Assembly: GCA_025677815.1 (NCBI GenBank)
Contig: JAIXMP010000001.1
Span: 434,001-498,000 of the forward strand
Direction: 5' to 3'
Origin: Phascolomyces articulosus
Taxonomy: Eukaryota > Mucoromycota > Mucoromycetes > Mucorales > Lichtheimiaceae
DNA: 64,000 nt
In this document: positions 1-58,839 of the stretch, one piece after another
Numbering within the stretch: position 1 is the stretch's first letter
Layout of the letters: the number at the start of each line of letters is the position of its first letter
Notes under the pieces: generated by a model
Databases searched by the model: none
What the model was told of the DNA's origin: nothing
The model's input: the letters and a program-made list of their open reading frames with translations, nothing else
Made by a program: the position numbers and the translations under genes

Positions 1-1933
1 AAGGGGTACAATCATTAGAAGAGAAAACTTCATCTGCTTTATATAAACAACATGCACCAATCGCTGTATAATGATTCTTTTCTCCTCCACGGATTTTCTT
101 GATGACAGGATAGTAAGTATAACTCTTATATCCCTTGAAAGGTATTCCGGTAAGCATCACATACTGTGTATTAGTAGTAGGGTCCAGATCCATGATCTCC
201 GTCAGTATACTTAAGTTAAATTCAGGTACATCAACACGAAGTTGATCGCTGGGATACCAAAACAAATTTTGCTTTTTTATCTTTATAAATTTTGATAACC
301 GTTGAAGCGTCAAAGAGATCAAATGAAGTATTCCTTTAGTCTTCCTCTTCTTCAAGGAATCACTGCTTTTTGTTACTGCTTCTTCTGAAATATAACCATC
401 ATAATCACAAATGTAAATGTTTTTGAGTTCGTTTTGACCAGGTAAATCGACCTTTAATCCAAGATGCCTGGTTCGTACATAACCATCATCAATGGAAGAT
501 TCAGTACTTGAGAAAGGGGGAAGGTCCTCGAAACGCATTGGTGTAAAATAATCACGATCAGTATTGAGCATGGATTCCTCGCTACTGTTCGTCAATCCAA
601 TACATGTGATTCTCATGATTCTTCCTTCAATGCAGTAATCTTGAAAAGGGTGTTTGGTCGGTGCATAATCACATTTATGTTGATAAAAGTGCTCTCCAGC
701 AATACCAGTCCAGGAGGGTAAGAATGAATATTTTTGAATCGGGACTTGATAAGTCCACGAACCGGCGGATAGTATCGGTGGAGCATTTTTATCACTTTTT
801 GATATTGAGTCCTTGTCGTCGTCGTCATCGTTGTTTTTTGGCGTATCACTGATTTTTCCCATTGCTTTATATCCACCGTGTCCTCCAAACAATAAGATCG
901 TAATATCCCTTTCAGCCAAAAGGCAATATAACTGAACCATAAGATCTTCCAATGATTGATGCTTTTTGTACTCCTGGTCGATTTTTAACTGTTGAAGAAT
1001 GGTATCGGGGAAAAGATTGGCAAGTGCATATATGCGGTCATGATCCAGCATACATGTCCGTATATGTGCACAAAATAGAATATCACTCAAATGCCATTGT
1101 TCGAGGGGTGTATTGATCAATGGATCAAGAGGTATTTCTGTTGCAGTAAAAACATCATCGGACCATAAATGAACATTTTTACCAATGATGACCATACGAT
1201 TAGAATGGATCGCTTCCATCAACGTCCATAGGCGCTTGAACCATTCGGATTGTTTCATTCGGACAGTGGTCTCTAAAAGTCCTATTTGTGCAACCTCCTC
1301 GGTCGTTGTTTGGAATTCAGGCACGAGTGACACGGTACAATGAGCATGTTTATATACCTGATGCATTTGTTGAATTTCTCGATGTTTCTCCTCTAAATTG
1401 TCTTGATCAATACACATTTGATCGTACCAAAGGTAATTGATATTGAATTGTTGACAAATTTGTTGAATGAGCTGTTCAAATGAAACATGTTTTTGCTGGT
1501 ATTCAATTATTTTCGATTTTTCATCGTTGAGACGGATTAGGAATTTTTGATATGGGTTGCTTTGAAAAAAATAATTTTTAAATCCGTCTATGATGCCTTG
1601 GACATTATCTTGAATAGTTGCATTTTGTGCTGTTTTTGTGATGGGTTGTATAATGATATGTTCGTTTTTATCGACATTATTTTTCTTTTCGTCTCCACTA
1701 GCTGTACACGATTGGCTCCATACATAGGATAGCGCACAGTATCCTTCGTTCACTTCAGATCCCGGTACTATTTGCATATCACATATACGAACAAGTTTAC
1801 TCGGCATAAATTCTGGTTTGGGTGGTGAAGTGGGTACTGTTTTAGGTGGTTGGGTAAATCGGCCGATTTGCATCCTTTGTAATTTAGGATTGCGGATTCT
1901 CGTCCATTGCGTTGTTTCATAAATAATGGGCAT
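1..1933 (-). CDS. HET-domain-like (heterokaryon incompatibility type) protein, 3' end outside window
   Basis: One uninterrupted frame runs from an ATG at 1933 to the left edge, giving at least 644 residues with no intron. The N-terminal half carries the order of motifs known from fungal HET domains: 'GYCALSYVW' at about residues 64-72, 'YLWYDQMCIDQDN' at about 167-179, then 'M..VYKHAHCTVSLVP' at about 190-205, and a later 'WFKRLWTLMEA' at about 228-238 that fits the W-R-x-W-T-x-Q-E segment of the family. 'DHDRIYALANLF' further on fits the usual end of the HET region. In ascomycetes HET proteins drive cell death after fusion of unlike hyphae; in Mucoromycota their role is not established, so function here is open. 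An acidic Asp/Lys stretch and a Lys-rich stretch lie in the C-terminal half. No TIR, NACHT or WD partner domain is visible in the part present. Confidence 0.72.
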   Translation of the reverse strand, partial: MPIIYETTQWTRIRNPKLQRMQIGRFTQPPKTVPTSPPKPEFMPSKLVRICDMQIVPGSEVNEGYCALSYVWSQSCTASGDEKKNNVDKNEHIIIQPITKTAQNATIQDNVQGIIDGFKNYFFQSNPYQKFLIRLNDEKSKIIEYQQKHVSFEQLIQQICQQFNINYLWYDQMCIDQDNLEEKHREIQQMHQVYKHAHCTVSLVPEFQTTTEEVAQIGLLETTVRMKQSEWFKRLWTLMEAIHSNRMVIIGKNVHLWSDDVFTATEIPLDPLINTPLEQWHLSDILFCAHIRTCMLDHDRIYALANLFPDTILQQLKIDQEYKKHQSLEDLMVQLYCLLAERDITILLFGGHGGYKAMGKISDTPKNNDDDDDKDSISKSDKNAPPILSAGSWTYQVPIQKYSFLPSWTGIAGEHFYQHKCDYAPTKHPFQDYCIEGRIMRITCIGLTNSSEESMLNTDRDYFTPMRFEDLPPFSSTESSIDDGYVRTRHLGLKVDLPGQNELKNIYICDYDGYISEEAVTKSSDSLKKRKTKGILHLISLTLQRLSKFIKIKKQNLFWYPSDQLRVDVPEFNLSILTEIMDLDPTTNTQYVMLTGIPFKGYKSYTYYPVIKKIRGGEKNHYTAIGACCLYKADEVFSSNDCTP

Positions 1934-3509
1934 CGTCTATGTTTTTTTAAAAATTACATTTTGATCATTCATATGAGTAATGATTCAGAAATGCAAAAGC
2001 GATCAGAGAAAAGAAAATGGCGAGGGTATCAAATAAACTTACAGTGGATAAATTGAGTTTATAAGGAATGATATATCTTCTTGTCAATGGAATATTTAAT
2101 TTGTCAACTTCTTTTCCTAATAGTACAATTCATCACTCATTAACGTGGCGATGTTTCTTTTGTTTTTATTATCTAGGCAATAGACCAATAATCTAATACA
2201 GTTACTGATAGAATAGGATATCGTAATAAAATAAACGAATTAAATAGAAACAAAAGATTAGACAGAAAAATTAGCAATATATTTTTTTTTACAATTCATA
2301 TTCCTATTTTTACATTCCAATAATATTTTATTGTACAACGAAAATTATACAAGTGTAACATCTGTTTCAACATTAAGAACTATACTAATACATCCTGCAT
2401 TAAATTCTACTAATATCAATTACTGTTATCTTCCCTCTAAAGAGGTTGCTACATAAAACCATTCATTTGTTCGAAGTAGAAGAGTGTTTTTATATATAAA
2501 AAAATACTCGCTGCAATTTACCATTAATCCAATCTATCAACTCTTTATACATTGGTACTCTCTTAATGCATTTATTGTATACCTATTCCTATGTTTAGGT
2601 ATATGGAACAACCATACTCTATAGAATATTTTACCATCAAAACTGTAATTTTTTGACTGTCATGATTTTGGTCTTTTTATATTATAGTTACTAAGTAATC
2701 ATTCTTCAATCTGTAATTATAGAGGTAGTATCATTATATGTGACTATCAAGAACAATAACAGAAGAATTTTAAATACCAAAAATATGGGATTATCCATTT
2801 GACAGGTCTATCCCAAAATGTGAAATATTATACTACTCTATGTAAACCTAGAATACACTTCTTGCATGAATGGATAACTTCAATCTTTTATAATAATATG
2901 TCTAGCAGCTGAACCAACGCATCATTTTTTTTTGTACAACACATCATTACATCATTAAGTTGTACGAATTCCATAATTCCAAAGTATATAATATAATATG
3001 TGCTGGTTTTCATTGAAAGTTTATCCTGTACCCAATAGAAATAAAAATGACTTATCTAAGAAAAAGAAAAAGAGAAAAAATTTCCTTTTTCTATTTCAAT
3101 AATGAAGAAAAAAATACGAGAACAATGGATTTTTGTGTATATGAATGCAAAATAAAAGACGGTAACAAGAAAATTGAGAGAGGAAAGAAAAACGCGCGCG
3201 CAAAAGATAGGGGAAGAAAAAAAATGATTAGAATGAAAAAAAAAGGAGGAAAGAAATTGAATTCGATGGGGGGAAAGAGGTAATTGGTCAATCAAGTTTT
3301 GGCGAAGCGTTATCAAGTCATGTTTGTTATATATATATATTTTTTTGCTATTGTTTTTTTTTGTATAATATATGGATTGAATGGAAATGGATGTTGTTGT
3401 TGTAGTAATAGTAATAGTTGTAGTAATTTGTTGTTGTTGGTCATGCGGAGGAGAGAGAGAAAAAAAAGGATGTGTGGGAGAAGGAGATTGGGTGGGAGTT
3501 GGGATATTC
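1934..3509. other. intergenic, AT-rich
   Basis: This gap lies between the start of the HET-like gene and the 3' end of the PITP gene. It is AT-rich with long homopolymer tracts. Small open frames near 3.05-3.6 kb are low-complexity or antisense to the last PITP exon. I see no RNA gene or repeat family here. Confidence 0.6.
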
Positions 3510-5042
3510 TTATTTTCCTTCATTGGTCTTAATACTGCTAGCGGCAATACTGACCGAATCCGAAGGTGATGGAACGGCAATGGGTGGACCTTCATTTCTC
3601 TTCACATCCAAATCCTTTTTAATTTGTTCTTCCAATGAACGGATATCTTCAATTGTCATACCATACCATTGATCCATCCAGCAAAACAATTGTCTAATTC
3701 ATCATATATTCTATTAGTATAAAAACACACACATAAAGAGACATAATACTCTCTCATTCCATCAATTTCTTTTTTAACCCTCCATTCCCACTGTCAATAT
3801 TTACCTATGGAACTTGATAAATAAGTTATGAATGGTCTTTGCAAGGAAGGACTCGACCTTGGTCTGAAGACCAAACCATTTGAATTCAATATATACAAGT
3901 TTATAACAGGTCATTACTGGTTCGCAGGTCTGGGTCCAGTTCTTCTCGGTCAGCGGACCACGACCGGTCTTGATGGAATGCATAAGCTTGGGATCTTCAT
4001 GGGGCTTATACTCCTTGGGATCGATTTTATCGTTTGCAACGTCAATCATTACAACATCGCGCTTCTTGAGGTCAGAATCTGAAATCTTGAGTGCATTAGG
4101 AAGTTCACCACGCGAACCATCCACATGCAATGTTTCATACACAATGGAGAAGTTGTCCTTCATATAACCATTCTTTAAAATAAAAAGATATAAATGTAAT
4201 CGTCAATTTATTGATTCATTTCAAATTTTGTATATATCATCCTTATCCATTTATCCTTCATAAAATGAAAATTTCTTTTCCTTACCTTCAATACTGTATT
4301 ATCAAGTGATCAACAAATAATAAATAATAAAAGCATAGATGAGTGATCTTTGTTTTTCAAGAGAAAAAACAAGAAATGCGATATAAAAAAAACAGCCAAA
4401 GGCCTCCCCTTTTTTTTATATAGATGATAATTCCTTTCCCCTTAATCCTATCCATTTATTTTACCTGTTTTACAGTAAGGATATGCGTTCCATGCCTAAG
4501 ATGAATATATAAAATTTTCAACAGAAAATAAGTAAACAGTAACTAGATATCGGTTGTCAACTATTTTAAATAAAAAATTGTTATTACCTCTTCATAAAGA
4601 TCAAGAGCACCAGCAGGTGCAATAGCGCGTACAAAACCAGGTACACGCGATGCTAAGCGAAAGATCTTGTATGTGTATTGCCCCTTTTCACCATTCTCCT
4701 TTTCATAAGGTTCATTCTTGAGAACTTCAACACCTTCACCACCACCTGTTTGTTCCTTTGATGCCATGGCAGTAGCATACAATTGACCTGAATTCCCAAT
4801 TAAAAAAAGAAAAGAAAAGAAAAGAAAAAAGGATTATATTCATTAGATAACAAGTAATATAATGAGAATTATTCATTCAGGATTCTTTGTTTGCCCTTTA
4901 CATCTGACAGTTCATCGGGATGGTACAAGAATGAAAATATAAGACACGATGGATATATATATAATAAAAATAGAAATACTTTACCGATTTTATATTCGGC
5001 TTCGGTACAATTATTGATGACTCTATATTCTTTAATAAGCAT
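3510..5042 (-). CDS. phosphatidylinositol transfer protein (class I PITP, START-like)
   Basis: This six-exon gene has exons 5042-4985, 4787-4588, 4495-4465, 4286-4293 (only 8 nt), 4172-3805 and 3693-3510. The frame is kept across all joins and gives 282 residues, close to the ~270 of animal PITPs. The family is recognised from 'MLIKEYRVI' at the start, '[15 protein letters not shown]', '[19 protein letters not shown]', '[10 protein letters not shown]', 'SIKTGRGPL', '[19 protein letters not shown]' and '[10 protein letters not shown]' near the end. PITPs move phosphatidylinositol and phosphatidylcholine between membranes in the cytosol and feed phosphoinositide synthesis. This is the animal-type PITP fold, not the Sec14 fold that dominates in yeasts. 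The last ~35 residues are Ser/Pro-rich and specific to this protein. No paralogue is seen in the window. Confidence 0.93.
4286..4293 (-). other. 8-nt microexon of the PITP gene
   Basis: An AG acceptor at 4295-4294 and a GTAAGG donor at 4285-4280 frame an 8-nt exon. Joined to 'AAAACA G' of the exon before and 'AAT GGT TAT ATG AAG' of the exon after, it completes T-V-L-K-N-G-Y-M-K. The PITP family expects this run here (T-V-I-T-N-E-Y-M-K in animal proteins). Without it the frame breaks. Confidence 0.85.
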
Positions 5043-48783: not shown

Positions 48784-50559
48784 ATGTCCTCGACATCTGC
48801 TCAACTCAAGCTCTGCCTGTGTGCTCTTTTCCTCGTGCTCTACGGTGATCGTATTTCTAAAGCTATTGCTTTAGCATTACTCATCTTGATTGACGCGTTC
48901 ATTCAATTCTGTTTCCTGGTCTGGCTCCTTCACCCCAAGTGGGTTCTTTTTCTCTCCCTTTCTGTACTTTGGTACAATATCAAATCTACACCGTCGTATA
49001 CTTTTGTATACAAACATATTGTTGCCAAATTAGTGGCATTACATTGTTCTCTCGTCTCGCCCTCACTGCCACCCACAACCGACACTGTGTTCCGTTTTGT
49101 TTCCATTTCGAGTTCACCCATGGAGCGCCCACAATCTTCGGATTGCAAGGGCAAAGATAAAGTTCGTTACGCACCTTCTCTCTTCTTTTCAGAAGATGAT
49201 GAAGAAGCTAAATTTCCTCCTAACGCTTGCGAGGCTCCAGTGTATTCACCAATTTTTGGTAAATATGTCCCTTGGTTCATTGCGCGTTTAAGCGAGGAAA
49301 AACAGCTCTGGATCGTGGAAAAATGGGGTGATACCCACACGATGCCAAAAGTATCGGTTTACTCGCCAACTGATGTGTTGGAGCAAGAAGTTGATCTCTT
49401 GTGCGATCGTTTCGCGGCCATGCACCTCGGTGCTAGTGCCCAATCTTCGGCTATCGATCAATGCCTCGATGAGCACACCTCGCTTTCGATGCCGGTTGCT
49501 GCATACGATGCTGTCACAATGGAAACGGGTGATTCCACCATTGTGCGTGCTAACGTCACTGATTCTTCACCAGTGATGGCGATCACTACTTCCCCCGATT
49601 GCAGTATGGATGTGGATGAATTGTCATTTGGCGATTCTCCATTCGCAGTTCTTATGGACGTGGATTCAGTGTCTTTTGGCCCTTCTCCATTTGCGATCCT
49701 TCTTGCAGAAGGCATGGAGTACGCCCCTGTTCGCATGACTGTAGTGGGTGATTCCACCGTCATGAATGCTCCACAACAATATGAGCAAACTTCTGTCGTG
49801 CACTTGCTGCCTTCAGAGTCCCTGCAAGGAGTCGAAAGTGCTCCAATGGGTACTGGTGTAGGCATGATGGATGTGTCGTCTTTTGATGACTTGCCTGCCA
49901 TGGCCGCATCGACACCTGCTGTTGAGTCCTCCCACCTTGGATGGCCATTGGGATGGGGTGATTCCTCCGATGTGCCATCAACCCCTGTAGTAGAACGGTT
50001 TGCAGTTGGTAGCAATACCTCTACTATGTTTGTTGACGAAGGTGTTGTTGAAGAAGAGGAAGACACACTTGCTGTGCGTTCAACGCAATTGTCAAATGAC
50101 GGGGAACCCTCGGGTGAGTCTAACGACAACAATTCCTCGGACATGGATGATTCTTCGGATGATTCCATGGAAGGTGAGGAATCCACAACGGGTGAGTCCA
50201 CAGACAACAATTCCTCGGACGATGATGATTCTTCGGATGATGAGGAACCCACAACGGGTGAGTCTACTGCAGACGACAATTCCTCCGATGATGGTCAGTA
50301 TACTGGGGAACCCTCTATGGGTGAGTCATCAGGCAACAATTCCTCGGACATGGATGCTTCCATGGATGATGAGGAACCTTTAATGGGTGAGCCTACCGAC
50401 AACAATTCCTTGGTTGGCCAAGGTGTCCCTTCGGATGCCTCCAGTGTTGTTTCGTCTGCAACGGCGGACATTCCTATTGTTGATGGGGGTGATTCCTCAT
50501 CGCAATATGATGACGAAAGTAGTGATGGCGAATCTCTTGAGATTCTACTCGCATCTTAA
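48784..50559 (+). CDS. orphan Ser/Asp-rich protein with hydrophobic N-terminus
   Basis: An intron-less frame of 591 codons, visibly richer in G and C than its surroundings. Residues 1-65 hold two or three hydrophobic stretches ('LCLCALFLVLYG', 'AIALALLILIDAFIQFCFLV', 'WVLFLSLSVLWY'). A second in-frame ATG at 49120 ('MERPQSSDCKGKD', residue 113) follows and could be the real start, giving a soluble 479-residue protein. A folded-looking segment comes next ('PVYSPIFGKYVPWFIARLSE', 'EKQLWIVEKWGDT'), then an internal duplication ('MDVDELSFGDSPFAVLM' and 'MDVDSVSFGPSPFAILL'), then about five copies of an acidic repeat around 'GES..DNNSSD'. No known family is recognised. The lack of introns and the degenerate duplicated DNA after it suggest a fast-evolving or element-derived gene, which is inference. 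Confidence 0.6.
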   Translation: MSSTSAQLKLCLCALFLVLYGDRISKAIALALLILIDAFIQFCFLVWLLHPKWVLFLSLSVLWYNIKSTPSYTFVYKHIVAKLVALHCSLVSPSLPPTTDTVFRFVSISSSPMERPQSSDCKGKDKVRYAPSLFFSEDDEEAKFPPNACEAPVYSPIFGKYVPWFIARLSEEKQLWIVEKWGDTHTMPKVSVYSPTDVLEQEVDLLCDRFAAMHLGASAQSSAIDQCLDEHTSLSMPVAAYDAVTMETGDSTIVRANVTDSSPVMAITTSPDCSMDVDELSFGDSPFAVLMDVDSVSFGPSPFAILLAEGMEYAPVRMTVVGDSTVMNAPQQYEQTSVVHLLPSESLQGVESAPMGTGVGMMDVSSFDDLPAMAASTPAVESSHLGWPLGWGDSSDVPSTPVVERFAVGSNTSTMFVDEGVVEEEEDTLAVRSTQLSNDGEPSGESNDNNSSDMDDSSDDSMEGEESTTGESTDNNSSDDDDSSDDEEPTTGESTADDNSSDDGQYTGEPSMGESSGNNSSDMDASMDDEEPLMGEPTDNNSLVGQGVPSDASSVVSSATADIPIVDGGDSSSQYDDESSDGESLEILLAS

Positions 50560-52727: not shown

Positions 52728-54246
52728 TCATTTCTCATTGTGTGTTAAGAGAGTAAAAAAAGAGAAAATCCCGTCTTTGGTTTTGATTGGAATTTATTGT
52801 ACTTTGATATCAGTTCAGGCGGTCTGGATTCATGAAACTCTTTTATTTGCCTTCACATATCTGAGCCTACTTGTCTTAGGGGAGGATACCTTCACAGCCC
52901 AATTTTATCTTTTATTTTGATTGCTATTATTGGATTGATTTTACCTGGTTTTCTATTGAGCCGAGTTGACCATATAGGCATTATCATTGTGGAGAGTGAA
53001 GGTGAAACTATTCTGGTTCTTTTTTCTTTATTATTTTATATAATACAGGAAAATGCTAGTTTAGAAAAGGGAAGCAATATTTTCAATCATCCACCGATAC
53101 TTACAGCCGACGGCTTGTTTCCGATATCATACTTACGTGTTACGTCGTACTACTTCTGGTGCTTTATTTTTTCGGCGTGCCTCTTTGTATAACAAGTGTT
53201 TACTGTATCATGTATCAAGACGGGAATCAAATCAGCATGATGTGCAGGAAATTATTATTATTATGTGTATGTCCCATCGGTTTATTGTGTATCTGAAATC
53301 AAGAAATCATCCAAAAACCAAATACTCCATTTCAAATTCATTTGGGTGCGGAGACATCATCTTTCCAAATGATGGTGCTGTTTGTTGTCACCTATCGCCA
53401 TTCAAGACAACCAAATCATCCAAGTGTTTGCCTACAAGCTACGGTATACTATTGCCATTACACTTTAACCGAATCAAGAAAGGGGCATATTCATAACGAG
53501 GAACCAAATTCCGTTTAGTATGACATCCGATGACAAGTCATAATATATGAGTACCAATAATCCAACAACAAATATTCATCAAGTGTTTGCGTATATACTG
53601 TCGTCTGGTGTCATGCTTTTTCAACCAAATTTTATTATACTCTTTGACTGGGCATAACATCATTTAGTGCTATAATGACTTGTTTCCTTGGAAACACTAT
53701 AGTTATTACTCTATTTGATGGGTGTTCTCGACATGGTATCAAGCAACGAAAAAAGTGGTAAAACGGAAACAGAGCAAACACCACTGACGCATACGATATA
53801 ACAACAGATGAAATCGCTCAAAATATGGCGATCAACAAAAACAAGACAATAGTTGATCTATCTGTATGCTTATTCGTATTGTGTGATAACAGGCATTTAT
53901 TGGGATTTGGTTACTCGTTCTTATGATGTATCCATATTTGGTCTTTCAAACAATCAAACAAAACTACTGGTGGTAGATGGCGAATACAACAGCAAGCAAA
54001 AAGAATACCATCAAGTCATAACCTTTGCTGTCGCCAACCACTGTCGAACATAATGTGCCATGGCGATTGACACAATCAAGCAATCAAACAAACCAAAAAG
54101 CAAATGAATCGCTGCCTGCCAATTCGAGCCTTTCTTATCACTATGGCGCGGTGCAATTTATTTATACATGTATCAAACGTATATATAATCAAGATTATAT
54201 TCTGGTGGCATGATTGGGACCCAACCGACAAAATTCTTTGGAACAA

Positions 54247-54276
54247 GGGGTGAGTGTTTTTTTGTGGGGTTTTTTG
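54247..54276 (+). repeat. left candidate terminal inverted repeat of the MULE
   Basis: GGGGTGAGTGTTTTTTTGTG followed by GGGTTTTTTG. The right end read on the other strand is GGGTGGTGTGTTTTTTTGTG followed by GGCTTTTTGG. Five mismatches in 30. Confidence 0.6.
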
Positions 54277-54451
54277 ATTTAGCAGCTGACAAAAAATTGA
54301 AATAGGCGAGAAGAAAAGCAGTCGGGGAAGAGGAAAAGCAGTCTATACGCAATTAAATGAATACATTAAAAGGATACTCTTGTAAATTGTTTGAATTATT
54401 CTTACTTCTTAATTACTTCCAATTACATTATCACTGTTTTATTACTGTACC

Positions 54452-57400
54452 ATGTCTTTCCCTCAATTTCCTGATGGTAAAAATATTTACCAAATCCAAC
54501 TTCGCGAAGCTAAAAAGGAAAACAGCAAAAACAACGAAAAAGAATATGTGTATGACATGAGCATTGGATGGCAGCTTTTCCAAAGAAATTATGGCCACAT
54601 CAAGAATGGCCTCAGTATCACCAAGATTTGTTTGGGTGCAGTAAACTGTACCAATAAGTCGTGTGGCAAGATAATCAGACCCATGAGTACGCCTAAAGGT
54701 ATAGAAAAGCAGGTCAAAGGCACTTGTGAATTCTGTAATGAACACTCCTTGCAGCACATTTGTTGTTCAGTTAGAGTGAACTTCAAGTTTACTGGGAGAA
54801 TAGGTACACTTGACCATCAAGGCACACACACTCATAACAGGTTTGAACCATTGCATGACACCATGGAAGTTCTTGACCAAGTGGAGGAACGTGTGCTTGA
54901 ATGCCCGTCAGAAACAGCATACGCGTTGAAAGTTGGCACCAGCAGTATACGTCCACAACAACCAGCACGACCAATGATCAAAATCAGCAAGACATTGCAT
55001 CGTCTCGGCAAAATTAAACGTTACCGACGTAATTTTCTTGTCAAGAGAGGAAAACTCCCTTCAAGCCGCCCCTCATTGGAATCTGCTAGTGACGAGCTTG
55101 GTAATCTTATTGAGGAGTTTCCCGATTACCTCCAATCGACCGATATAACACCCGGCAAATTCTGCATTACGTTCTGTGCCCCAACTGTTGCTGCTCGTGT
55201 CGATTTTCAATCTTACCCTATCCTCACCGACGTCACATACGATTGTTTCTCGAAGGGTTATTACCTGTGTTCTACAAATATATTTTTTGAAGAGACGGGT
55301 AAGTTTGGTGTGGTTTTTCAAGCTGTTCTTGATGGTTTGACAGCCACACATTTCAAGGCTTATTTTCTATCCTTCTTTCGTACCTTTGCATTTGCATTTG
55401 GCAAGTCAGACGAGGAACTGGATATTAATTTTTCGGGGCTGGTAAGTGTATAAAATGATCTACTGTAGTGTAGATGGTTGGTGATAGAATGAGTGTTTTG
55501 ATGGTGAGCGAGTGATGGGGTAAAAGGCTTGGATGAAAAGGTGATTGGTGAAAGAGTGATGGGTGAAAGGGAAAGGGTATTGAGAGGTTCAGTTAATGAA
55601 GTTTGTGATAAGGATATGGGTATGAAAAAATGTCTTGAGCATGTGAGCATGTTTGATATAGAAGGAGCATATACTATATGGACGAGGGGAGGTTGTAGAA
55701 CATAGAATAAGGACGTGAAAACAAGTAACTTAACAGCCACAATATTGTCGAGTTGCATTGTAAACATGAACGGCGAAACCGGCTGTATTTTGATTGTATT
55801 GCTTACTGGTACGTGATTTTTGAATGTATGAACTATATATATATATTGTTATAGGTTATGGATTTTTCCCAATCCCAACGTCAAGGTTTTCTTGATGCGT
55901 TTATGGATGCGTTTCCTCGAAGCAACATTGATGCAACTACGCTCCTTCGTGGATGCTATCATCATTGGAAGCAGTCGGTCCAGCGCATAGTCAGCAATCA
56001 CTTTGTCGTTCCTCGTGGCTTTGATGATAATTTTTTGAATTTGACGAACAAGATGTATAATGCCAAAACCGAAAAGACATTCAATAGTGCAGTACAGGAT
56101 CTACACAACGAATTTCCAAACTGCCATCGTTGGTTAAAATGGTGGACAAGAGATGAAATTGCGGTAATGATTTTCAGATCAAAGGCTGTCTTGAAGAAAG
56201 AATTGCAAGAAAATAAATGTCGTACAACCAATGGCATTGAGGCGTACCATCGAGATCTTTATAGGATTGTTCATGCCAAGAAACCAGTGATTGAAACATT
56301 ACGTCAAATGTTTTATTACTTACAATCACTGGAAAAAGACTTTGAATGCTTTGACAATGGCTTCAGAGTTAAAGACACTCAAAATAAAAGGTATTATCAT
56401 ATTTTTGTATGATTAGCTAGTGTACTTATATATTTCTTTTTATGATAGTTCAAAGCCAAAGAAGGAGAGATTTATAAACGATGGACGTGCACCTGACACT
56501 ACCAAAGCTCTTCTTGGTCATGGTTAGTACCCGATTTTCATTTATTGTACTGTTTACATTTTGATATTTTATATATATTCCATACATTTACATTAATGTG
56601 TTGTGTTATATAGGGGAAGAAAAGAAAAAAGAAAAGAGTGGTGATGAGAAGGGAAAGGTTGACGGCGATAAAAAAGACCAGCCGAAGGAGGAGCATGGTA
56701 AGTCGAGACGAGAATTGTTGGCAGCCAGGCGCGAGCAGCAAGCAAACCAAATACGTGAAGAATATAAGGAGAACAAGAAGAGAAGAAGAATGGAAGAAGA
56801 GGAACGCGAATTAAAACGAATGAAGATGATAAATGAAAAGTCTGCTAGGTGAGAAGGCAGATTGCCGATAACTGATAAAAAAAAAGAAACATGGTATGTT
56901 TTTAAAATTTATAACTGGTTATGTTTTATTTGTATAGAGAGAAGATGTTTAAGCCGATGGTCCGTGAGTTTAACCTTCTTCCCATGTCGGATTTACATAT
57001 GCGCCAGTTCAAGTTGGATAAAGAAGGCGTTATTGGGAGATATAGCCCTGTTGATGATGGTAACTGTGGTTGGCGGGCTGCATCTTTTGCAATTTATGGA
57101 AAAGAAGACCAGTGTTTTGTTGTCAAGTTATGTATGAAGACAAAAATGGAACAGCAATCGACACTGTTTAAGGATATGTTTGGTGAAACACTTTACCATA
57201 AATTGATGAAGAAGTTTGATCAGCCAGAAGGACCGGTGACAATGGGGTTGTGGTTTGACAATCTGGAATGTCCAATTGTTTTAGCTCAAGTTTATAATCG
57301 ACCAGTCATTGTATTGACAACTCCCATTGAAGCATCATTTACATTCTTGCCATATGTCGAAACAGAGAATACAGATGACGACAAAACCCCCATTATATTA

Positions 57401-57559
57401 CACTTGGATAGAATACATTTCTATACAGTTATCATGAAAGACGAAGCAATTAATCATATGCAATGGCCACGTTTGGAACTCACCTATGAACCTTATGTGA
57501 AGAGAAAGCAACTATCAACAACATGGTTGGATTTTTATCACCAAAGACACCATATTTAA
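54452..57559 (+). CDS. MULE transposase fused to an OTU-type cysteine protease domain
   Basis: Five exons (54452-55441, 55855-56390, 56449-56522, 56614-56848, 56938-57559) with GT-AG junctions keep one frame: 818 residues. Residues 60-130 hold a Cys/His zinc-binding segment ('CTNKSCGKII', 'CEFCNEH', 'HQGTHTH') like the WRKY-GCM1 DNA-binding domains of Mutator-like transposases. The DDE core is complete: Asp260 in 'ILTDVTYDCF', Asp332 in 'VMDFSQSQRQGFLDAF', the C-x-x-H block 'CYHHWKQ' and Glu459 in 'TTNGIEAYHRDL'. A highly charged Lys/Glu/Arg coiled-coil-like linker (about 535-615) leads to an OTU-like domain: 'SPVDDGNCGWRAASFAIYG' with nucleophile Cys655, 'ECPIVLAQVYNRPVIVL', and His772 in 'LHLDRIHFYTVI'. 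OTU domains are deubiquitinases or related proteases. No stop or frameshift is seen, so it may be a recent, perhaps active element. Confidence 0.88.
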
Positions 57560-58059
57560 CATGTATGTAATATTCAATATGGTTAACCAAAATGGTACTA
57601 ACTTTTTTTTTCTTTTCACTCATTATAGTTAACTGACAAAGCATTATAATTTAACTAATTCGTAACATAGACGGGCAATGACCCATTTGGAGATAAGTTG
57701 ATGACTTTTTTTCTTGTTGTTTATTTCAATTGTTGTTTTGTTTTATTCTTTCGGGTTTCATATAAGGATGGTCTATATGCCTTTATATTGTACGATCAAG
57801 TGGATCAATATGTATTTGTCATGTGTGAATAAGGTATGGTTTACTCAGGTTGAATTATGTGAACCTGAGGTGAATTGGTGAAGTAAAGTTGTATGATTAT
57901 ATGACGTTGTTAGTAAATAGTTCAATATACTTGGTAAGTGACAAATATTAGATATATATAGTCAATAGAATAGTTAAATAGAATAGTTATAACTATTGTA
58001 ACCAGAGCCTAAGATAGTTTTTTTTAAAAAAAAGATGAATAAAAATCACTTGATAAACC

Positions 58060-58417
58060 ACACAAAAAGTACATTTTGAATTTGCCACACAAAAAATACC
58101 ACACAAAAAAAATCGCTTGTAATATGGACTATATAATGCTGTAAATGATAGATACCTAGTTTATACCACACCAAAAAAAAAAACCACAAAAAAAAAAAAA
58201 AACCACAAAAAAAAAAAAAAAACCACACAAAAAATACCACACAAAAAAAATCTTTTGAGTGAGGGGAGTGAGCGCCATGAAGAGACAGGCCCCTAAAAAA
58301 AAGTACACAAAAAAAAGTACACAAAAAAAGTCGCTTTTTATAATACCCAAAGTACTGTGTAACATCCACACCGGTGGCGAAGTACACAAAAAATCTGTGG
58401 CTAAATACACAAAAATG
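58060..58417. repeat. A-rich subterminal repeat array of the MULE
   Basis: Many copies of C(C/T)ACACAAAAAA, CCACAAAAAAA and AGTACACAAAAAA occur in two clusters (58,060-58,250 and 58,290-58,417), and the word CCACACAAAAAATACCACAC occurs twice. They echo the motif at the element's end. Such subterminal repeats are usual transposase-binding sites in class II elements. No similar cluster is seen at the left end except the terminal repeat itself. Confidence 0.6.
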
Positions 58418-58447
58418 CCAAAAAGCCCACAAAAAAACACACCACCC
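58418..58447 (-). repeat. right candidate terminal inverted repeat of the MULE
   Basis: CCAAAAAGCCCACAAAAAAA followed by CACACCACCC, matching the left end in inverse orientation at 25 of 30 positions. Confidence 0.6.
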
Positions 58448-58839
58448 TAAAAAAAATCATCTTTTTTTTAATTGCTTGTTGTTGCTTTGCCATTGAAAGA
58501 TGAAAAGAGTATAAGTACTATTTTTTTTCTTGGTGATTAGCTTGTCAGAGTGCTGTTTATTACTCCAAACTGATAAACAAGAAGTTTGTAATTTCTCTAG
58601 CTGTAGAAAATAACTAGATACATTATGCTGCTGATAGACTTTTTTTTTTGCAAGAACAACTCTATTCACATATACTGTATATAGTGAACTGTATATATGA
58701 ACAAAAAAAAAGCAGGATTCATTTACCATAACTTTTCTTTCTCTCTTCCTTTTTCTTTACTAAAGAAAAGAGCATTGTTGAAATATTTCAATCCAAACTT
58801 TCCTAACTAAAATAGCAAGATTAAAAGCATCCATAAAAG

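Follow-up and report, generated by a model that had tools for sequence, protein, structure and literature searches.

A recently mobile MULE of Phascolomyces articulosus that very probably couples a DDE transposase to an OTU-like protease domain in one gene

The window, a stretch of 64,000 nucleotides from the genome of Phascolomyces articulosus, contains a recently mobile MULE that, with high confidence, we describe as encoding a GCM-type zinc domain, a DDE transposase and an OTU-like domain in a single gene. A preliminary description of this DNA had placed a transposase fused to an OTU-type cysteine protease at 54452..57559. The gene is found there, but the feature itself is larger, as a whole transposon extends from 54248 to 58447 (Table 1). 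OTU-bearing transposons are already known; what appears to be new here is a recently mobile fungal OTU-MULE whose protease module is apparently exchangeable.

Table 1. Positions of the element, its gene and related loci carrying a different C-terminal domain (unprefixed positions are those of the window)
Feature	Position	Strand	Description
Complete MULE, presumed autonomous	54248..58447	+	4200 bp, GGGTG...CACCC
Left terminal inverted repeat	54248..54274	+	inverted repeat and boundary from the duplications of other copies
Right terminal inverted repeat	58420..58447	-	inverted repeat and boundary from the duplications of other copies
GCM-type zinc domain	54620..54841	+	residues about 57-130, limits approximate
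Exon 1	54452..55441	+	N-terminus, GCM-type zinc domain, opening portion of the MULE core, including D260 (codon 55229-55231)
Intron 1	55442..55854	+	413 bp, GT-AG; relative L042 is a single ORF across the junction
Exon 2	55855..56390	+	remaining MULE core: D333 (55861-55863), Cys-His motif, E459 (56239-56241)
Exon 3	56449..56522	+	kept segment NDGRAPDTTK
Exon 4	56614..56848	+	charged linker, rich in lysine/arginine; 49% identity to each Circinella fused protein (aligned part)
Exon 5	56938..57559	+	OTU-type cysteine protease domain, C655 (57065-57067), H772 (57416-57418)
Different-domain locus L049	C13:272700-277700		C-terminal domain other than OTU
Different-domain locus L050	C56:1691700-1696800		C-terminal domain other than OTU
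Different-domain locus on C20	C20:799475-799834		C-terminal domain other than OTU
Different-domain protein P0017			Circinella; C-terminal domain other than OTU

Imperfect terminal inverted repeats of about 27 nt bound the element, as is expected of MULEs; the underlying pair (54246-54274 and 58420-58448) agrees at 86% over 29 nt, ungapped. Window positions 53900-58700 were used as the query in a DNA search of the species' own genome (47.4 Mb, 110 contigs), and the window copy and five others matched at 100% over about query positions 349-4548. These six copies, which answer the earlier proposal to look for full-length copies in the genome, span 4198-4200 bp; in an alignment of 4200 columns they differ at only 2, each of which falls within a poly-A run and outside the gene. 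Target-site duplications flank five of the six. Four are 9 bp long, the length for which the script tested, and one, recognized by eye in the flanking sequence, is 10 bp; both lengths lie within the 8-11 bp typical of MULEs. Because six near-identical copies exist and duplications flank five of them, we conclude that the element has transposed recently. The 27-nt left end has seven matches in the genome at up to three mismatches, against none for a reversed-pattern control; all seven belong to the six copies or to a degenerate copy on contig C70, and at this length and tolerance no short derivatives sharing the left end were found.

The window copy, which lies on contig C1, has no target-site duplication in its flanks, and its insertion site may have been rearranged. 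The genome search matched its right flank to itself alone. The left flank (53900-54247) has a 91% paralogue lacking the element at C1:523256-523611, about 25 kb past the window. Elsewhere in the window, positions 50175-50410 hold a tandem repeat with a 66-bp unit (3.7 copies, 72% matches).

Broken older relatives of the element are present on C70 and C27. The degenerate copy at C70:114458-121856 (L036, L030) is hypermutated in a RIP-like manner, with 229 of its 275 substitutions being C>T or G>A. By context, C>T changes affect 52 of 74 CpG, 51 of 167 CpA, 4 of 100 CpT and 0 of 78 CpC sites, and the observed/expected CpG ratio is 0.13 over 7.4 kb of this copy versus 0.83 in the window. No comparable C>T or G>A bias was seen in the C27 copy. 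Such a RIP-like pattern was unexpected in a Mucorales genome; in a kingdom-wide paper on RIP (PMC12543289) the word Mucorales does not occur, and four passages on Mucoromycota say nothing of RIP in that group.

The gene of the window element is one open frame of 818 aa, made of five exons spliced through four GT-AG introns (54452-57559), in agreement with the spliced arrangement first proposed. Joins 1 and 2 are backed by the relative L042, a 653-aa ORF that is intronless there (for join 2, on visual inspection). The evidence for joins 3 and 4 is the GT-AG frame and the annotation of P0001, P0002, P0005 and P0014, all incomplete, as single proteins. The charged linker anticipated between transposase and protease corresponds to exon 4 and is basic, rich in lysine and arginine. 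Given six near-identical copies, we rejected the idea that a single degenerate copy had produced the fusion as an artefact.

N-terminal zinc domains of the WRKY-GCM1 type are common, not universal, in MULEs, and the Cys/His DNA-binding finger predicted for this protein proves to be of that type. Residues C71, C92, C95, C105, H126 and H128 are invariant across eight aligned proteins, and a profile of 14 transposases (A4) searched against the PDB retrieved the GCM1 structure 1odh at E=2.5e-5. The Pfam GCM family had no match in the window protein itself and matched 4 of the 14 window-type transposases scanned below the cut-off (4.7e-5 to 0.0065).

MULE DDE cores are characterized by the motifs D-x-T-Y, D, Cys-His and R-[TS]-x-N-x-[IV]-E. 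Of the triad first assigned, Asp260 and Glu459 were placed correctly, but residue 332 is a Met and the Asp is residue 333. The suggested comparison with the MULE profile gave no direct Pfam match, PF10551 being undetected at E<=1 in the window protein and in each of the eight members of alignment A2, but the profile of its relatives does align with PF10551-type MULEs. Across the eight A2 members Pfam returned scattered sub-threshold matches only. The window protein by itself gave almost no Pfam matches, and one to CDC45 around the linker (E=0.62) was rejected as chance. With untrimmed profiles of window-type and PF10551-type MULEs, hhalign gave a probability of 10.5% and E=0.0029; with 12 trimmed window-type cores set against eight PF10551-type cores, it gave a score of 36.8, P=3e-4 and a probability of 40%. 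None of 60 column shuffles scored as high (maximum 25.4), and the reversed profile scored 14.9. The aligned part of the core covers window residues about 342-489, comprising the FP, Cys-His and R-T-x-N-x-E459 region; the alignment begins past D333, and D260 and D333 rest on the conserved motifs TDVTY and MDFS. Profile alignment and motifs together support the assignment of the window core as a divergent MULE DDE core with D260, D333 and E459 as its predicted triad.

The C-terminal domain required a similar approach, as the window protein alone reaches no Pfam cut-off with either catalytic domain. Exon 5 scores 15.2 bits against PF02338, below the cut-off of 23.3, but profiles built from its relatives match OTUD5 and other OTU proteins, so that the profile check proposed earlier fails for the single sequence and succeeds for the family. 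Six of 11 MULE-linked OTU regions match PF02338 at E<=1, the best at 7.4e-4 (20.5 bits). A profile of exon 5 and four full-length relatives, searched against the PDB, placed OTUD5 first (E=0.0015); OTU-domain proteins occupy 6 of its 10 rows, the others being chance matches. The profile of all 11 MULE-linked OTU regions (A5) was more sensitive, retrieving OTUD5 at 3.1e-9, OTUD1 at 7.8e-5, OTUD7B at 0.0016 and A20 at 0.0048. Of the 21 PDB sequences found with A5 up to E=10, 19 read as OTU-domain proteins and the other two are papain-like proteases (E 1.6 and 2); four matches named RNA polymerase we take to be L proteins of nairoviruses, which contain a viral OTU. The likeness to OTUD5 and other OTU deubiquitinases is one of profile similarity from the D-G-x-C motif to the His region; those are cellular enzymes, unlike the transposon-borne OTU of the window.

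The predicted catalytic residues are where the preliminary description had put them, with C655 in Asp-Gly-Asn-Cys and a late His at H772. All 11 rows of the alignment have D-G-x-C-G, all nine that extend far enough have the His, and the WP...W tail of exon 5 is common to other MULE-linked OTUs. OTUs usually have Asn or Asp two residues after the catalytic His; here that residue is Tyr (HFY), versus HYN in the OTUD5 row, and an upstream Asp is a possible third residue. Profiles of relatives and the existence of fused relatives support a gene model that joins a MULE transposase to an OTU-type cysteine protease, and it is probable that the C-terminal domain is an active ubiquitin-type isopeptidase.

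Fused relatives occur outside this species. A search with the full 818 aa found eight proteins, among them P0001 and P0002 of Circinella minor, both annotated as OTU domain-containing and 54% identical to the query, of which they cover 94% and 100%, respectively. Single-protein gene models of another Mucoromycota species support the fusion, although all annotated fused models are incomplete: P0001 stops ahead of the OTU His, P0002 lacks the stretch around the Cys-His motif of the core, and P0005, a 40% relative from P. articulosus with a matching gene on C27, is missing a portion of the core, and its annotated form also has no OTU His, although that residue is present in the genomic frame L015. 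An alignment-based search, which scored only the 7997 candidates with the most shared words, returned 16 proteins, including P0014, an incomplete Circinella protein that extends from the core across the linker to the start of the OTU. Compared part by part, the window protein is 73% identical to P0002 and 71% to P0001 in the MULE core, 49% to both in the linker, and 45% and 40%, respectively, in the OTU. The OTU of the type found on C80, used as a query, retrieved one protein, P0018 of Circinella minor, which is a PF10551 MULE with an OTU.

How general is the association between the protease and the transposase? Counting an OTU as linked when it follows a transposase on the same strand at a distance of no more than 3 kb, we detected at least 21 loci of the window-type transposase, of which 13 have an OTU, three have a different domain (the C13 type) and five have neither detected. 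The PF10551-type transposase was found at no fewer than 28 loci, with an OTU at 12 and none detected at 16; all these locus counts are lower bounds, and the searches score best candidates only. Conversely, 25 of the 30 OTU-like loci found sit immediately downstream of a MULE transposase, and five do not, one of them (C14) near a contig end. The distance from the last transposase match to the OTU is 539-728 nt for the window type and 1433-1727 nt for the PF10551 type, and the chance expectation is about 0.001 OTU loci per transposase locus. Linkage at so many loci favours a transposase-tied role over a random passenger. Because the OTU is retained beside two divergent transposase types, we propose that the protease serves the transposase. 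As a separate observation, with 25 of 30 loci linked to MULEs, the number of OTU genes counted in genomes of this kind may reflect transposons; the survey may miss genes with introns inside the domain.

Phylogenetic analysis of the OTU domains points to a more complex history. In an unrooted tree of 12 domains, a single branch with support of 100/99 separates two groups. The first comprises the OTU of C24, which belongs to a window-type transposase, together with those of the PF10551-type loci C80, C46 and C64 and of Circinella P0018; the second comprises the window-type OTUs and the OTUs of the PF10551-type loci C19 and C100. The 12-row tree was flagged for long branches, and with the long C64 row left out the same branch is recovered in 11 rows at 99/97. 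A tree uniting the six window-type rows was rejected (p-AU 0.012; 11 rows, C64 excluded), in a test that followed prior sight of the likeness of C24 to PF10551-type OTUs and was accordingly not blind. Because this branch splits the window-type rows, the tree suggests that the OTU has been exchanged or gained repeatedly, a reading drawn from one branch, few rows and fast-evolving sequences.

A sister group (C13, C56, C20 and Circinella P0017; Table 1) has the same transposase type with a different C-terminal domain in the place of the OTU. This C13-type domain carries the motifs MSCYIDA and GxHxKTT and is cysteine-protease-like by motif. Its likeness to the USP/CYLD catalytic domain is at the level of motifs; tested as a USP, it matched no Pfam family and gave no relevant PDB match. 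It is conceivable, if somewhat doubtful, that in the Mucorales the OTU has moved from one transposase lineage to another, the two having separated long ago, and that the sister group has swapped in an unrelated cysteine-protease-like domain.

Protease-bearing transposons have several precedents. Plant MULEs with ULP1 are exemplified by KAONASHI and CUMULE, which resemble the window element as Mutator elements with a protease for ubiquitin-like proteins; theirs is ULP1, acting on SUMO, and Pfam found no ULP1 match in the window protein. KAONASHI had been put forward as the precedent, and protease-carrying MULEs are indeed known, but MuDR-6_HM of Hydra and Ginger1 stand closer. OTU-bearing Helentrons, some of them fungal, share the OTU and are Rep/helicase rolling-circle elements, not DDE transposases. 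In Table 1 of PMC6446971 (Dupeyron et al. 2019), MuDR-6_HM (group 14) is a MULE entered with 'Ovarian Tumour Gene'; it shares with the window element the pairing of MULE and OTU, differs in being cnidarian, and is compared here by description only. Its terminal inverted repeats are given as 'None' in that table and its target-site duplication is not indicated, whereas the window element has terminal inverted repeats. The same source describes MULE-Mucorales (group 5) as having a 10-bp target-site duplication, one ORF, a 40-bp terminal inverted repeat, SWIM and no other motif. It is like the window element in being a Mucoromycota MULE with a 10-bp duplication and one ORF; the window element differs in its inverted repeat of about 27 bp, its GCM-type finger and its OTU, and Pfam found no SWIM match in its protein, so that neither the SWIM zinc finger nor the 40-bp repeat of that group is present. 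Ginger1, as described in PMC2836005 (Bao et al. 2010), has a DDE transposase and a C-terminal OTU, with Ulp1 instead in other members; it differs in that the transposase is integrase-like, not of MULE type, and the tabulated hosts are animals. The same paper cites Mutator elements with Ulp1 from plants, hydra and lancelet, and suggests a role for ubiquitin in transposition or repair. In the open-licence literature searched, within the portions of text available, no description of a fungal OTU-MULE was found. The term 'OTU' is absent from the main text of a paper on arthropod MULEs (PMC13359780), and one OTU-domain gene of Mucor lusitanicus is reported as an RNAi target, a tie to MULEs going unmentioned in the relevant passages (PMC11943222).

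Why would a MULE carry an OTU domain? In the mechanism that we propose, the GCM domain would bind the terminal repeats and the DDE core would cut and paste the element, leaving 9-10 bp duplications; binding and cleavage are predicted from the family. Carried covalently into the transpososome, the OTU domain would most likely strip ubiquitin either from its own transposase or from other proteins present where the element leaves or inserts, which could result in a longer life for the transposase or in easier strand transfer and repair. It is plausible, as was suggested at the outset, that the transposase or its complex is spared ubiquitin-dependent turnover or that chromatin is acted on. Protection in cis of the transposase or transpososome is our tentative choice for the main role of the OTU, at a little under an even chance. 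Taken as a whole, an OTU-carrying MULE acting as proposed is the best explanation that we can offer, and we consider it slightly favoured.

The substrate could instead lie elsewhere, with the OTU acting chiefly, at the donor or target site, on factors of chromatin or DNA repair, such as ubiquitinated histones or repair proteins, and not on the transposase. Fusion to a DNA-binding transposase would bring the OTU to chromatin, and PMC2836005 suggests a role of this kind for the OTU and Ulp1 domains that Ginger1 and other transposons carry. The protein, however, contains no chromatin-reader module detectable by Pfam at E<=1, and we regard this alternative as unlikely, though a serious contender.

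Is the domain catalytic at all? A relic with little or no catalytic activity, or a module that binds ubiquitin without cleaving it, would be consistent with the lower conservation of the OTU relative to the core between genera (40-45% versus 71-73%), with the lack of Asn or Asp at the usual third-residue position and with the missing His of annotated P0001 and P0005. On the other hand, six recent copies retain the Cys and His, as do other families with an aligned OTU identity of 20-39% to the window, and we judge a relic to be quite improbable. Slightly less probable still is that the transposase and OTU are two separate genes inside the element, joined by the gene model alone. Joins 3 and 4 lack a read-through relative, and in L042 (C24) the two parts fall in separate stop-to-stop frames, of which the second begins no more than 10 nt from where the first ends; against this, the reading frame is maintained across both introns, the linker is kept at 49% identity and several relatives are annotated as single proteins. 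Proteases in some other mobile elements process polyproteins, and the cysteine protease here sits after a long basic linker, but Pfam finds no ubiquitin-like domain in the protein and OTU enzymes are isopeptidases with ubiquitin-type substrates, and a self-processing protease that releases the transposase from its tail is very improbable.

Why proteases for ubiquitin or SUMO should be found in transposons that are unrelated to one another is a question raised in PMC2836005. Identical intact copies of a recently mobile fungal element, together with relatives in which the protease has seemingly been exchanged or replaced, make this question directly testable. If the catalytic cysteine matters, ubiquitination would be a host control on transposition that the elements remove. 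If the exchange of protease modules among the transposases of the Mucorales is true, ubiquitin removal at the transpososome would be a repeatedly selected need, which would point to a ubiquitin-based host defence against transposases.
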